From Comamonadaceae bacterium (GTDB lineage: Bacteria > Pseudomonadota > Gammaproteobacteria > Burkholderiales > Burkholderiaceae_C), in assembly GCA_947445115.1 (NCBI GenBank), contig CANFCG010000005.1:1-64000 (forward strand): 64,000 nt of DNA, in the 5' to 3' direction. The notes under the pieces are model-generated. The model made no database searches. It saw only the letters and a program-made list of their open reading frames with translations, and was not told the origin of the DNA. Both the position numbers and the translations under genes were made by a program. Positions 12,427 through 16,416 of the stretch are shown in pieces (within the stretch, counting starts at the first letter, position 1; the number at the start of each line of letters is the position of its first letter).

Positions 12427-12490
12427 TCATATCAAAAAGATTGAGGGGGGGGTGCTCCGACAGGTTGTGCAGCTTTTGCATTGGCCTGAC

Positions 12491-12570
12491 AGCTCTTCTT
12501 ACGTCGGTACGAACCGATTCAAGTTCACGGGTTTGACTTTGTCATCTCAGCTTTGCAGCACCCCGGAGCG
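12491..12570 (-). promoter_or_regulatory. TPP riboswitch (THI element) in the thiC leader
   Basis: Read on the minus strand, the leader contains GGGGTGCT, then a short GCT/AGC hairpin, the conserved CTGAGATGA, ACCCGTGAACTTGAA, a TCGGT/ACCGA hairpin and GACGTAAGAAGAGC. These follow the order and key bases of the TPP aptamer: GGGGUGC/ACCC for P2, CUGAGA, the GAACUUGA arm, and the closing GAAG segment. P1 is GCTC/GAGC. A -10-like TATACT lies just upstream at 12577-12582. Between the aptamer and the thiC ATG is AGCACCCCCCCC (12445-12456), which can pair with the aptamer's GGGGTGCT and may be the switching strand. No U-tract terminator follows, so control of translation is the likelier mode. Confidence 0.93.
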
Positions 12571-12650
12571 ATTAGAAGTATAGCGCTGTGGATATGCCGC
12601 GTTATTTTGCTATAAAATTTTCTGAATAAATATATGATAATATCGCCGGC

Positions 12651-12681: not shown

Positions 12682-12708
12682 ACCTCTTATTCGTTTTTGG
12701 AGATTGAT

Positions 12709-12906
12709 ATGCGTTTATTAAATACACAGGAATTAGCTCTGGTGCAGGCTGGGGTTGCAGCGCCAACTACCCCTACGCCACCACCGGTAACGACGCCTAC
12801 GCTACCACCAGTGTCCACGCCTACTGGCTGTGATGGGGGTCGTGATGATCACGACGATAGTCGTCATGAGGGTGGTCGTCACCATGGTGATCGCCACGAC
12901 CGTTAA
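12709..12906 (+). CDS. Small secreted peptide precursor with double-glycine-type leader (bacteriocin/microcin-like, unrecognised family)
   Basis: 65 residues, starting at the ATG six bases after GGAG; an upstream in-frame ATG lacks such a site. Residues 1-15 (MRLLNTQELALVQAG) fit the double-glycine leader consensus: Glu at -8, Leu at -7, Val at -4 and Ala-Gly at -2/-1. Cleavage after Gly15 would release a 50-residue peptide. Its first half is Pro/Thr-rich with an 8-residue repeat (TPPPVTTP, TLPPVSTP). Its second half has one Cys, five His, seven Asp, one Glu and five Arg, with two GGR-led units. This is very hydrophilic, unlike pore-forming class II bacteriocins, and suggests metal binding. 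The exporter genes are next downstream. I do not recognise the mature peptide, and no immunity or modification gene is seen. Confidence 0.8.
   Translation: MRLLNTQELALVQAGVAAPTTPTPPPVTTPTLPPVSTPTGCDGGRDDHDDSRHEGGRHHGDRHDR
12775..12822 (+). repeat. 24-bp tandem repeat in the peptide gene
   Basis: Two adjacent 24-base units encode TPPPVTTP and TLPPVSTP (residues 23-38 of the precursor). They differ at a few positions. Such a repeat can expand or shrink and so vary the spacer between leader and His/Asp-rich end. Confidence 0.8.
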
Positions 12907-12955
12907 AGAAGTCGGATAGCCCGCGCTATCTACCGCAATTTAAGTCGTATTTTCG

Positions 12956-12990
12956 AATGGGATTCTGGGTTTGCTCAGAGTCCCATTTTT
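12956..12990 (+). terminator. Intrinsic terminator between the peptide and exporter genes
   Basis: TGGGATTCTG (12958-12967) pairs with CAGAGTCCCA (12976-12985) with one G-T pair and an 8-base loop, followed by TTTTT. A second perfect 6-bp hairpin (GATAGC/GCTATC, 12915-12930) precedes it just after the stop codon. Read-through would be needed for the exporter to share the peptide's promoter. Confidence 0.85.
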
Positions 12991-13010
12991 ATTAAATGGG
13001 GTGTCAATCG

Positions 13011-14300
13011 ATGCAACTATTCCGTAAGGATGTGCTGGCTGCTAATCACCCTCGTCTGCATGGCGAGATCGTGGTTCGTGGCAGCTGGATGACGTGGGGC
13101 CTCACGAGTCTCATCGTTGTGTGCATCACCTGCATTTTGGCTCTTGTTGTGTTTGGACAATACACCCGTCGCGTCGTGGTCTCTGGTTATTTGATACCCG
13201 TGGGTGGTGTGGTTCGTATTTATAGTGCGCAAGCGGGACGCGCAACCAAAATTCATGTGGCTGAAGGTGATGTTGTTGCCGCTGGGCAGGCGTTGGTGAC
13301 CGTGCTTGACGAGCGTCCAGATAGCACGGGCGGCGACGCACGTGCGCGCAGTGCGAAGCAAATACAAGATCGCAAGGATAATTTTGAAAGCGTCATTAAG
13401 CAGCAGGGGCAACTGTTTGATCAGACGGATCGTGGCTTGACGCTTCGAATTGCGGCGTTAGATCAAGAAATGGCGCAATTGTTTGTTGAGCAAAAAACGC
13501 AATCCAGCCGAGTGGGTTATGCAAAAAGTGCCTTGAAGCGCAATATCGACTTAGCCGCGCAAAATTATGTCTCAGACGCTGTGGTGCAGGAAAAGCAAGA
13601 GGCTGTGGCAGATCAAGAAGTTAAATTGCAAGCTTTGTTGCGCACCCATTCTGGTCTGCGGCGTGAGTTAGAAACGTTACTGTCTGAAAAAGCCGAACTG
13701 CCCATGCGCAAGTTGACGCAAATTGCCGAGTTAAAGCGTAATGTCAATCAAGCTCAGCAAGATTTAATTGATTTGGGTTCCAAAAAAGAAATCTTGGTGA
13801 CGAGTCCGCAAGCCGGCGTTATCTCCGGCCTATCTGTTAAGCCTAGTCAATTAGTTTCACTTGATCGTTCACTGATGGTGCTTTTGCCACAAAATAAAGT
13901 CAATCCAAGTCAGGCTGATGAGCTGGAAGGGCATCTCTATGCACAAAGTAAAGACGTCGGATTTTTGCGCGTAGGACAAGATGTGATGATTCGATACGGC
14001 GCTTATCCGTATCAAAAATTTGGGCAATATAAAGCCAGAGTGGTTGAGGTTTCACGCACCCCCTTTTTGCTAGCAGAGCTCCCCTTTCCAATGGCTGTAA
14101 AGGTGGCGCCTGCGGCGAGTGAAGAGCCTGTTTATCGACTGCGTGTAGCGTTGGACAGTCAAAATGCAAAAGCTTACGGCGCGCCGCAAGCCTTGCAAAG
14201 TGGCATGCAATTGGAGGCGGATGTCCTGCTGGATACGCGGACTGTTTTGGAGTGGGTGATGGAGCCCATTTACTCGCTGCACGGTAAGTACTCAAGATGA
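13011..14300 (+). CDS. HlyD-like membrane fusion protein of the peptide exporter
   Basis: 429 residues from the chosen ATG (MQLFRKDVLAANH); an ATG five codons upstream lies only a few bases after the terminator tail and has no ribosome binding site, whereas GGGGTG precedes the chosen one. One membrane segment spans about residues 27-49. It is followed by a lipoyl/barrel-sandwich half (GYLIPVGGVVRIYSAQAGRA, EGDVVAAGQALVTV), a long heptad-rich helical hairpin (about residues 105-255), then the second half SPQAGVISGLSVKPSQLV. This is the adaptor layout of CvaA-like proteins of type I peptide secretion. It should link the ABC exporter to an outer-membrane channel; no TolC gene is in the window. 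Seven bases separate it from the exporter gene. Confidence 0.9.
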   Translation: MQLFRKDVLAANHPRLHGEIVVRGSWMTWGLTSLIVVCITCILALVVFGQYTRRVVVSGYLIPVGGVVRIYSAQAGRATKIHVAEGDVVAAGQALVTVLDERPDSTGGDARARSAKQIQDRKDNFESVIKQQGQLFDQTDRGLTLRIAALDQEMAQLFVEQKTQSSRVGYAKSALKRNIDLAAQNYVSDAVVQEKQEAVADQEVKLQALLRTHSGLRRELETLLSEKAELPMRKLTQIAELKRNVNQAQQDLIDLGSKKEILVTSPQAGVISGLSVKPSQLVSLDRSLMVLLPQNKVNPSQADELEGHLYAQSKDVGFLRVGQDVMIRYGAYPYQKFGQYKARVVEVSRTPFLLAELPFPMAVKVAPAASEEPVYRLRVALDSQNAKAYGAPQALQSGMQLEADVLLDTRTVLEWVMEPIYSLHGKYSR

Positions 14301-14307
14301 TGACCGC

Positions 14308-16416
14308 ATGAAAAAAACATTGATTTTTAGTGGCAAGCGCCCGCTGCCCATGATCTATCAGACCGAAGCCGCTGAGTGCGGGCTCGCCTGCCTAGCCATG
14401 GTGGCCGGCGCGCATGGGACGCAGTTGGATTTGCCGGGGATACGCGTCAAACTTTCCGTTTCGCTCAAAGGTATGAATTTGGCGCAGCTCATGGATGGCG
14501 CGCAAAGAATAGATTTGGCCAGTCGCCCCCTCAAGCTAGAGCTCGGACAGCTGAAAGATTTGCAATTGCCATGTATTTTGCATTGGGATTTGAATCATTT
14601 TGTGGTGTTGCAAAGTGTTAAAGCACATACGGTGGTGATTCATGATCCTGCGCGGGGTATCCGAACGTTAAGTCTGGATGAAACCTCCAAGCACTTCACT
14701 GGCGTAGCGCTGGAACTATTACCAACGCCTGCTTTCAAACCGAAAAATGCACGGCGACGCGTGAGTTTGAGTGATTTATTGGGTCGATTGATTGGCGTGA
14801 AGAGCCAAATGACACAGATATTTATCATTTCTTTGGCGCTTCAGGTTTGCGCGCTCATCAGTCCGCTCTACATCCAATCTATCGTTGACCACGCTTTAAT
14901 TGGAGGGGATAAAAACCTCATTGCACTGCTGTCACTTGGATTTTTATTTTTAGCGTTACTGCAAGTCGGCATTGGCACGTTGCGTGGTTGGCTGGTCTTG
15001 AGGCTAGGGACTGAAATTGGCGTGCAGTGGTCAATTAATGTTTTTACCCATCTCATTCGTTTGCCGCAGTCATTTTTTGAAAAACGGCACTTGGGCGATT
15101 TGCTGTCAAGATTTGGTGCAATTGGCTCCATTCAGCGTACGCTGACGACCAGTTTTATCGAAGGCATTATTGACAGTATTTTGGCTCTTTTGTCGTTTGT
15201 CATGATGTGGATCTATAGCGCCACACTCTCTTGGATCGTGATTGCCTCGGTTGTGATTTATGGGCTGCTTCGAGTGATGGCCTATGCCCCGCTGCGGCAA
15301 GCAACCGAAGAGGGGATTGTTTTGAGCGCGAAGCAGCAAAGCACTTTTATGGAGAGTTTGCGCGGCATACAGGCCATCAAACTCTTTGCCCGTGAGTCCC
15401 ATAGGCAGGCGCTGTGGCATAACCATTTGATTGACACCACAAATTTAACGATTAAAACGCAGCGTCTGATGCTGGGATATAGCGTAGCGAGCGGTACCCT
15501 TGCCAGCATCTCGGGTATTTCGGTTGTCTGGCTAGGCTCGCAGCTCATTTTAAATAACACGTTTTCAATAGGTATGCTATTTGCCTTTTTTGCGTACCAA
15601 AGTGTTTTTACTCAGCGCATGATGGGTTTGATTGACAAGTCGATTGAACTAAAAATGCTAAGTTTGCAATCAGAGCGTTTGGCCGATATTGTGCTCACGC
15701 CAAAAGAGAGTCACTCGAGCACAGGCCTTGCGGGTATGGGATCACAGGCTTTTCCTGAGGGGATTCTCAAAATCGAAGGTGTGAGTTTCCGCTATTCCGA
15801 TGTGGATCCTTATGTTTTAAAAAATGTGTCGCTTGAGATTCCCGAAGGTCAGTCAATCGCCATCGTGGGGCCATCGGGTTGCGGGAAAACGACGCTGGCA
15901 AAATTGATTCTGGGTTTGCTGGAACCAACGGATGGCCGTATCATGAAAGGTACGACAGATATTTCTAGGGTGGATTTATTAGCATGGCGAACGAGAGTCA
16001 ATGCGGTGATGCAAGACGATCAATTGTTTGCTGGCTCGATCATTGACAACATCTGCTTTTTTGATGAATCACCCAATATGGCACGTCTTAAGCATGTGGC
16101 GGAGTTGGCCAGTATCCACGCATCGATAGAGAAAATGAGTATGGGTTACAACACGCTGATCGGGGACATGGGCACCGCTTTGTCTGGCGGGCAAAAGCAG
16201 CGTTTGCTGCTGGCGCGTGCCCTATATCGTGAGCCACACATTATTATTCTTGACGAAGCAACCAGTCATTTAGATGTGGCACTAGAAAAAGCAATCAACC
16301 ATGCTATCCATGCGCTCACCATGACACGTATTGTGATTGCGCACCGTCCCGAAACCATTGCGTCGTGCGATGTGGTGATTGATTTGGAAGCCATCAATCA
16401 AATTGAAAAGCACTAA
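14308..16416 (+). CDS. C39-peptidase-containing ABC exporter (bacteriocin-type processing transporter)
   Basis: 702 residues in three parts. The N-terminal C39 cysteine peptidase has Gln18 and Cys24 in [14 protein letters not shown], His97 in WDLNHFVVL and Asp113 in HDPARG, so the catalytic set is complete. About residues 165-440 hold the membrane segments. The C-terminal ATPase has Walker [10 protein letters not shown] near 521, the Q loop [10 protein letters not shown], signature [15 protein letters not shown], Walker [13 protein letters not shown] and the switch His in IAHRPE. Relatives such as CvaB remove double-glycine leaders and export the mature peptide. Together with the HlyD-like gene and the leader peptide upstream this makes a complete inner-membrane export unit. 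The stop lies two bases before uvrB. Confidence 0.95.

Follow-up and report, generated by a model that had tools for sequence, protein, structure and literature searches.

Double-glycine peptides encoded beside C39 exporters are often taken for bacteriocins. Here we describe a three-gene cassette in a 64,000-nucleotide stretch (henceforth the window) on contig C5 of a Comamonadaceae genome, which totals 2.34 Mb at 97% completeness. The 65-residue cargo of the cassette is apparently an undescribed kind of hydrophilic, low-complexity exported peptide that looks unlike the usual bacteriocins. We propose that the three genes serve type I secretion in the manner of CvaA/CvaB. Cleavage of the precursor by the C39 domain would most likely fall behind Gly15, and the ATP-binding cassette (ABC) exporter, together with its HlyD adaptor and a TolC-like channel coded elsewhere, would move the 50-residue peptide out in one step. 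Once outside, the peptide most likely acts as a disordered, hydrophilic molecule of stalk and tail, either at the cell surface or within the extracellular matrix. A hairpin behind the cargo gene probably lets only some transcripts reach hlyD, which would yield much more cargo than exporter. To this explanation as a whole, namely CvaAB-kind export, partial termination and a surface or matrix peptide rather than a membrane-active bacteriocin, we assign a probability of roughly 0.55, the extracellular role being its least certain part.

The original prediction described a small gene with a strong ribosome binding site and a leader fitting the double-glycine consensus, and the sequence bears this out. 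On the plus strand, as for all features of the cassette, a Shine-Dalgarno (SD) motif GGAG (12699..12702) precedes an open reading frame (ORF) of 65 amino acids (aa; 12709-12906), which begins with the 15-residue double-glycine leader MRLLNTQELALVQAG (12709..12753), bearing Leu -12, Glu -8, Leu -7, Val -4 and Ala-Gly. A helix is predicted for its residues 6-13, and in an alignment of 11 leaders M1, R2, L4, E8, V12 and G15 are the six invariant positions. With 3 to 9 amino acid changes per 15 codons among the leaders of the genus, codon-level conservation is not unusual; the pattern is what persists. Co-location had been held to make this cargo likelier than chance, and this too stood up: when the 500 bp before hlyD were resampled with a first-order Markov model (4 loci x 4,000) and scanned for an SD, an ATG-initiated ORF of at least 50 aa and the leader motif, 2 of 16,000 resamplings gave such a gene, compared with 4 of 4 real loci. 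A leader profile search of the window genome returned this one match only.

Conservation within the genus points the same way. Exporter relatives were gathered by a pattern-based contig search of which the best 80 matches were kept, and the closest exporters among the matches listed (78%, 77% and 76% identity) are those of loci L003, L004 and L005, belonging to genomes G001, G004 and G002 of the same genus as the window genome. Each of them has, immediately ahead of hlyD, a small gene that shows a ribosome site and encodes a 15-residue leader. Four of the five genus genomes analysed have one C39 hit each, which is this exporter, just upstream of uvrB, and in all four carriers the small leader peptide is encoded directly before hlyD and is followed by a conserved hairpin. 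The prediction had asked for orthologs beside C39 exporters in relatives, and leader peptides do stand there in the genus; the outcome named beforehand as fatal, an exporter kept and its leader or small gene lost, was looked for among the genus carriers, where 4 of 4 keep the leader peptide in the same place. We regard the observation of the small gene as confirmed and the reading given with the prediction as supported. The fifth genus genome, G003 (99% complete), gave no C39 hit and no leader match, and the gene before its uvrB is presumably thiD. Outside the genus, the closest exporters among the matches listed are L006, L007 and L008 (58-59% identity), around which the sole hit to the leader motif was an unlikely 44-aa ORF in L008, L007 beginning only 2.9 kb before its exporter. 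Upstream of hlyD, L007 and L008 contain a 288-codon open frame that by eye resembles a lipoprotein gene.

The next two genes had been predicted to encode an adaptor and an ABC exporter whose C39 peptidase has all four named residues, and coordinates, Pfam matches and alignment agree. The HlyD-family periplasmic adaptor spans 13011..14300; the listed start is 12996, and the starts of its relatives make 13011 (M-Q-L-F-R) the probable one. The 702-aa exporter follows at 14308..16416, with its C39 peptidase domain at 14347..14727. Both proteins exceed the Pfam cut-offs (HlyD_3, Peptidase_C39, ABC_membrane and ABC_tran), the C39 and ABC domains far above them, and alignment of the peptidase with LahT150 (6mpz) and PCAT1 (4ry2) places Gln18, Cys24, His97 and Asp113 on conserved positions, which we take to be the catalytic ones. 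Three features of secretion of the CvaAB kind are present: the C39 residues are in place, and a gene for an HlyD-family adaptor and one for a cargo with a double-glycine leader adjoin. Because exporters of the CvaB and PCAT1 type are known to cleave after Gly-Gly or Ala-Gly and to export in one step, cleavage after Gly15 is to be expected, and we have high confidence that the peptide would be exported. The microcin V exporter is reported to carry very different small proteins, largely whatever their chemistry (PMC10231218).

The cassette had also been called complete. This stands for the peptide, hlyD and C39 ABC genes, but an outer-membrane factor gene is absent from the cassette, so that the term is justified only if some other TolC-like protein encoded in the genome works with these genes. 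Elsewhere in the genome there are 10 OEP domain matches, counted as 5 genes, and none in the cassette. In NCBIfam, the best matches were TIGR03796 (NHLP exporter) for the exporter and TIGR01843 (type I HlyD adaptor) for the adaptor, both under the curated cut-offs (479.9 against 853.3 bits and 105.2 against 208.65), and the NHLP adaptor model TIGR03794 reached 73.9 against a cut-off of 156.2. We rejected NHLP membership since these scores lie well below the curated cut-offs.

Between the peptide gene and hlyD lies a terminator-like hairpin with a T tract (12956..12993; 14 bp, -20.4 kcal/mol), 13 pairs of which recur, again with a T tract, in the hlyD spacers of all four genus loci. All pairs are kept, with 3 one-sided and 0 two-sided changes, and the preceding spacer drifts; an argument from covariation was dropped. 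Read by eye, a hairpin and T tract likewise come after the peptide genes of G082 (2 of 2), G161 (2 of 2) and G992 (with a weaker T tract), and no hairpin is evident after those of G023 and G924. A promoter scan was not above chance. The conserved hairpin is probably a device for making far more cargo than exporter.

The cargos of the four genus members have a common plan and no shared sequence: after the leader comes a stalk rich in Pro with Thr or Ala, and then a Gly-rich polar tail. In the window peptide, the Pro/Thr-rich stalk (residues 16-39; 12754..12825) resembles the stalks of L003, L004 and L005 in composition, and the polar Gly/Asp/His/Arg tail with one Cys (residues 40-65; 12826..12903, with the stop codon extending to 12906) is not conserved in sequence, being shorter than, and unlike, the tails of the relatives. 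The four mature parts have 50, 85, 86 and 75 residues and isoelectric points (pI) of 4.7 to 12.0. To place their composition, we compared 44 leader peptides (from near the exporter relatives and from G161, passing motif, ribosome-site and length filters, with a mature part of at least 25 residues), some of which may be false leaders: VILMFYW residues make up 3-9% of the four genus cargos and 14-45% of 36 of the 44 peptides. The seven least hydrophobic comprise the four genus peptides, two from G161 and, as the seventh, Tahibacter L011. As weak evidence of disorder, AlphaFold with a four-row alignment predicted one helix, spanning leader residues 6-13, and neither helix nor strand elsewhere (mean predicted local distance difference test 67, predicted template modelling score 0.20). 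The statement that the mature part belongs to no recognised family has held, since, at the limits used, Pfam, NCBIfam and PHROGs gave no match to the window peptide, and none of five peptides scanned met a Pfam or NCBIfam cut-off. Where the relatives matched library entries, the alignments fell chiefly within the proline stalk and no score exceeded a curated cut-off; we set these matches aside as composition. The strongest, both of L005, were SslE in NCBIfam (E 3e-5, 21.6 bits against 3000) and phrog_15511 (E 9.3e-6, no cut-off given).

What then might the peptide do outside the cell? We favour a role on the cell surface or in the matrix because no immunity gene was recognised in the window, because the mature part has no hydrophobic stretch and because there is a precedent in EbfG1-4 of Synechococcus, double-glycine proteins reported to be required for biofilm, with EbfG4 on the surface and in the matrix and EbfG1-3 forming fibrils (PMC4997328, PMC9981879). 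The cargo may act on the cell surface or in slime. That a set of systems within one bacterial family pairs the same export route with hydrophilic low-complexity cargo, and in the window with no recognisable immunity gene, suggests that some such systems build surface or matrix material.

The strongest competitor is a class II microcin-like bacteriocin that would take the same export route and inhibit or kill related bacteria, its immunity protein being coded elsewhere. The leader, the C39 exporter and the adaptor fit the microcin set-up (PMC9746304), a conserved exporter with a rapidly changing cargo is consistent with an arms race, and some homologous exporters, such as that of L009, adjoin GxxxG-rich bacteriocin-like peptides. 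Nonetheless, judged by ORF length and place only and by published microcin criteria, there is no immunity candidate among the three nearest window genes on each side, an absence that is weak evidence, as immunity genes have no common sequence (PMC9746304). The lack of a hydrophobic stretch also speaks against a bacteriocin, and no described bacteriocin family model was matched in Pfam, NCBIfam or PHROGs, a comparison outside which single microcin sequences and PADLOC stand. On balance we consider a bacteriocin unlikely, if still to be reckoned with. It is improbable that the peptide is secreted for metal binding, with its Asp/His tail and single Cys capturing or buffering metal ions outside the cell: the 50-residue mature peptide does hold 5 His, 7 Asp and 1 Cys, and at least one Cys occurs in 14 of 14 cargos tabulated and His in 9 of 14, but neither His nor Asp is constant across the genus (1 His in L003; a pI of 12 and no Asp in L005), and 5 of the 14 cargos are without His. 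Finally, a tail shorter than and unlike those of the relatives, in a small genome, could mark a decaying or non-functional remnant whose exporter serves other cargo, a reading we find very hard to credit given that the frame, start, ribosome site and leader are all intact, that the leader match is the single one in the genome and that place and hairpin are conserved.

Cargos of this type occur beyond the genus. Leader profiles, one of 8 leaders run against 250 Comamonadaceae genomes and one of 11 leaders run against 363 (overlapping samples; E <= 0.1), matched 11 and 18 genomes, respectively. By our reading, and with a class boundary of our own choice, 13 of the 18 (8 genera) hold low-complexity cargos rich in Pro, Cys, Gly, Lys or His (G000, G001, G002, G004, G023, G034, G082, G161, G924, G992, G1012, G1066 and G1067), with two such peptides each in G082 and G161. 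When the genomes already in the profile when first found (G000, G001, G002, G004, G161 and G123) are left aside, the share is 8 of 12. Of the 13, 12 have a homologous ABC exporter encoded no more than 2 kb away, and an HlyD homologue was seen in 11 of those 12, the contig of G023 ending inside its exporter gene; in G161 the peptides and the exporter are on different contigs, and the exporter genes of G992 and G023 have an outer-membrane efflux gene next to them. In a FastTree phylogeny of 105 exporters, the four genus members group together (support 100), and a separate group of 6 (support 100) unites L059 (Hydrogenophaga), G023, G034, G082, G161 and G992, all 6 of which go with low-complexity cargos if the Pro/Lys/Cys-rich L059 peptide is counted. 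As two separate exporter groups go with low-complexity cargos, the cargo type spans more than one exporter lineage. At the level of the order, the leader profile matched 3 of 399 genomes at E 0.01: the window genome itself, G438 with another cargo type, and G425, not counted, whose frame is short and proline-rich, carries another leader-like stretch and lacks a clear ribosome site. Among the titles and abstract starts listed from the open-licence literature, none described proline-rich double-glycine cargos of Comamonadaceae. The cassette offers a compact test case, along with a leader profile that finds further members.

A broader proposal can be made only tentatively, and we would sooner bet against it than for it. 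Comamonadaceae C39 exporters might release an undescribed class of tiny structural proteins in which the leader is constant, a proline-rich stretch follows and the polar module, rich in Cys, Gly, His or Lys, can be exchanged. These would be made in excess over the exporter by way of a terminator after the cargo gene, and outside the cell their Cys and His residues would serve for cross-linking or for metal bridges. One 25-residue module or more would be common to them and to giant surface proteins whose genes adjoin those for type I secretion.

Several points weigh against our preferred explanation of a surface or matrix peptide and its extension to a class. Cleavage and export are predicted from the sequence, and the likeness to EbfG is one of kind only. 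The tail is conserved in neither sequence, length nor charge (mature pI 4.7 to 12.0), so that it points to no common function. For the hairpin, two-sided changes are lacking, the shuffle control was uninformative, and a terminator scan found no more sites than in shuffles and did not list this hairpin. Other cargo types occupy 5 of the 18 matched genomes (G123, G941, G990, G994 and G1041), the G990 cargo, counted among them, being short, polar and Gly/Asp-rich. Within the low-complexity class, the cargos of G023 and G1067 are more hydrophobic (19% and 26% VILMF), and those of G924 and G1066 have few prolines. The profiles themselves favour finding this class, as they were built mainly from leaders of low-complexity cargos: 9 of the 18 matched genomes supplied leaders, and the leader of the other-type cargo L033 (G123) was dropped in the course of profile building.

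A module of about 25 residues, NNGxGNGDxxAPGxSxxxNxAEN, was observed in the tails of L003 (L003:1006-1308), L004 (L004:1170-1475) and one G161 peptide (L116:7824-8078), and G336, G788 and G758 also carry it in long low-complexity proteins, with two copies each in the latter two (further loci L121:6214-9402 on the minus strand, L124/L128 and L125/L129). The module proteins of G336 and G758 adjoin ABC and HlyD or outer-membrane efflux genes. Since the window peptide is without the module, our explanation does not rest on it. None of the peptides scanned met a Pfam or NCBIfam cut-off, Pfam gave no match for the G336 protein or for two pieces of the G788 one, one 29-residue copy had no match in plasmids, phages or solved structures (PDB), and four module strings had none in the open-licence literature. 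A search of the order returned 9 of 399 genomes at E 0.05, of which only G336 is trusted. Near the middle of 8 other loci, the pattern gave only short fragments on either strand, in L112 and L114; no module was seen when the middle of 6 of the 8 was read in three frames, and a match in L108 (E 1.6e-4) was not traced.

Two further peptide loci deserve mention. G050, at the locus of another exporter relative, encodes a His/Trp-rich double-glycine peptide with the cargo YWHCIPHGDHWHCHWHDPVFTI (L102:1262-1414, minus strand). G161 encodes a VKOR-domain protein (L116:5089-6798) whose start weakly resembles C39, scoring below the cut-off. Its neighbours include two double-glycine peptides, each terminating in polyproline-QDF, and it is perhaps a disulfide-forming helper. 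In the window, the order of genes is a minus-strand gene that we read as thiC, the 65-residue gene, the HlyD adaptor, the C39 ABC exporter and a uvrB-like gene starting two bases past the exporter gene. We named the flanking genes from their sequences, presuming thiC, thiO and thiS (the 73-aa gene among the nearest neighbours) on one side and uvrB beyond the ABC gene. A thiamine pyrophosphate riboswitch (12479-12575, minus strand) fills about a third of the gap between the thiC-like gene and the peptide gene.

How does the cassette compare with known systems? With CvaA/CvaB (microcin V) and the class II microcins it has in common a 15-residue double-glycine leader, a C39 ABC exporter with conserved residues, an HlyD-type adaptor and an adjoining cargo gene. 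It differs from them in that the cassette includes no outer-membrane factor gene and no immunity gene was recognised nearby, and in its hydrophilic low-complexity cargo. EbfG1-4 and PteB of Synechococcus elongatus are reported likewise to pair small double-glycine proteins with a peptidase transporter that helps to export them; EbfG1-4 have a biofilm role, with fibrils in EbfG1-3, and the window peptide is likened to them by kind only. NHLP exporters (TIGR03796) and TIGR01843 adaptors provide the best NCBIfam matches of the window proteins, yet well under the curated cut-offs. A further comparison is with Verminephrobacter L009, whose exporter is 56% identical and whose leader is of the same type. 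The cargos beside related exporters such as that of L009 are GxxxG-rich and hydrophobic, with 23-29% VILMFYW, and it is in its cargo that the window cassette differs.

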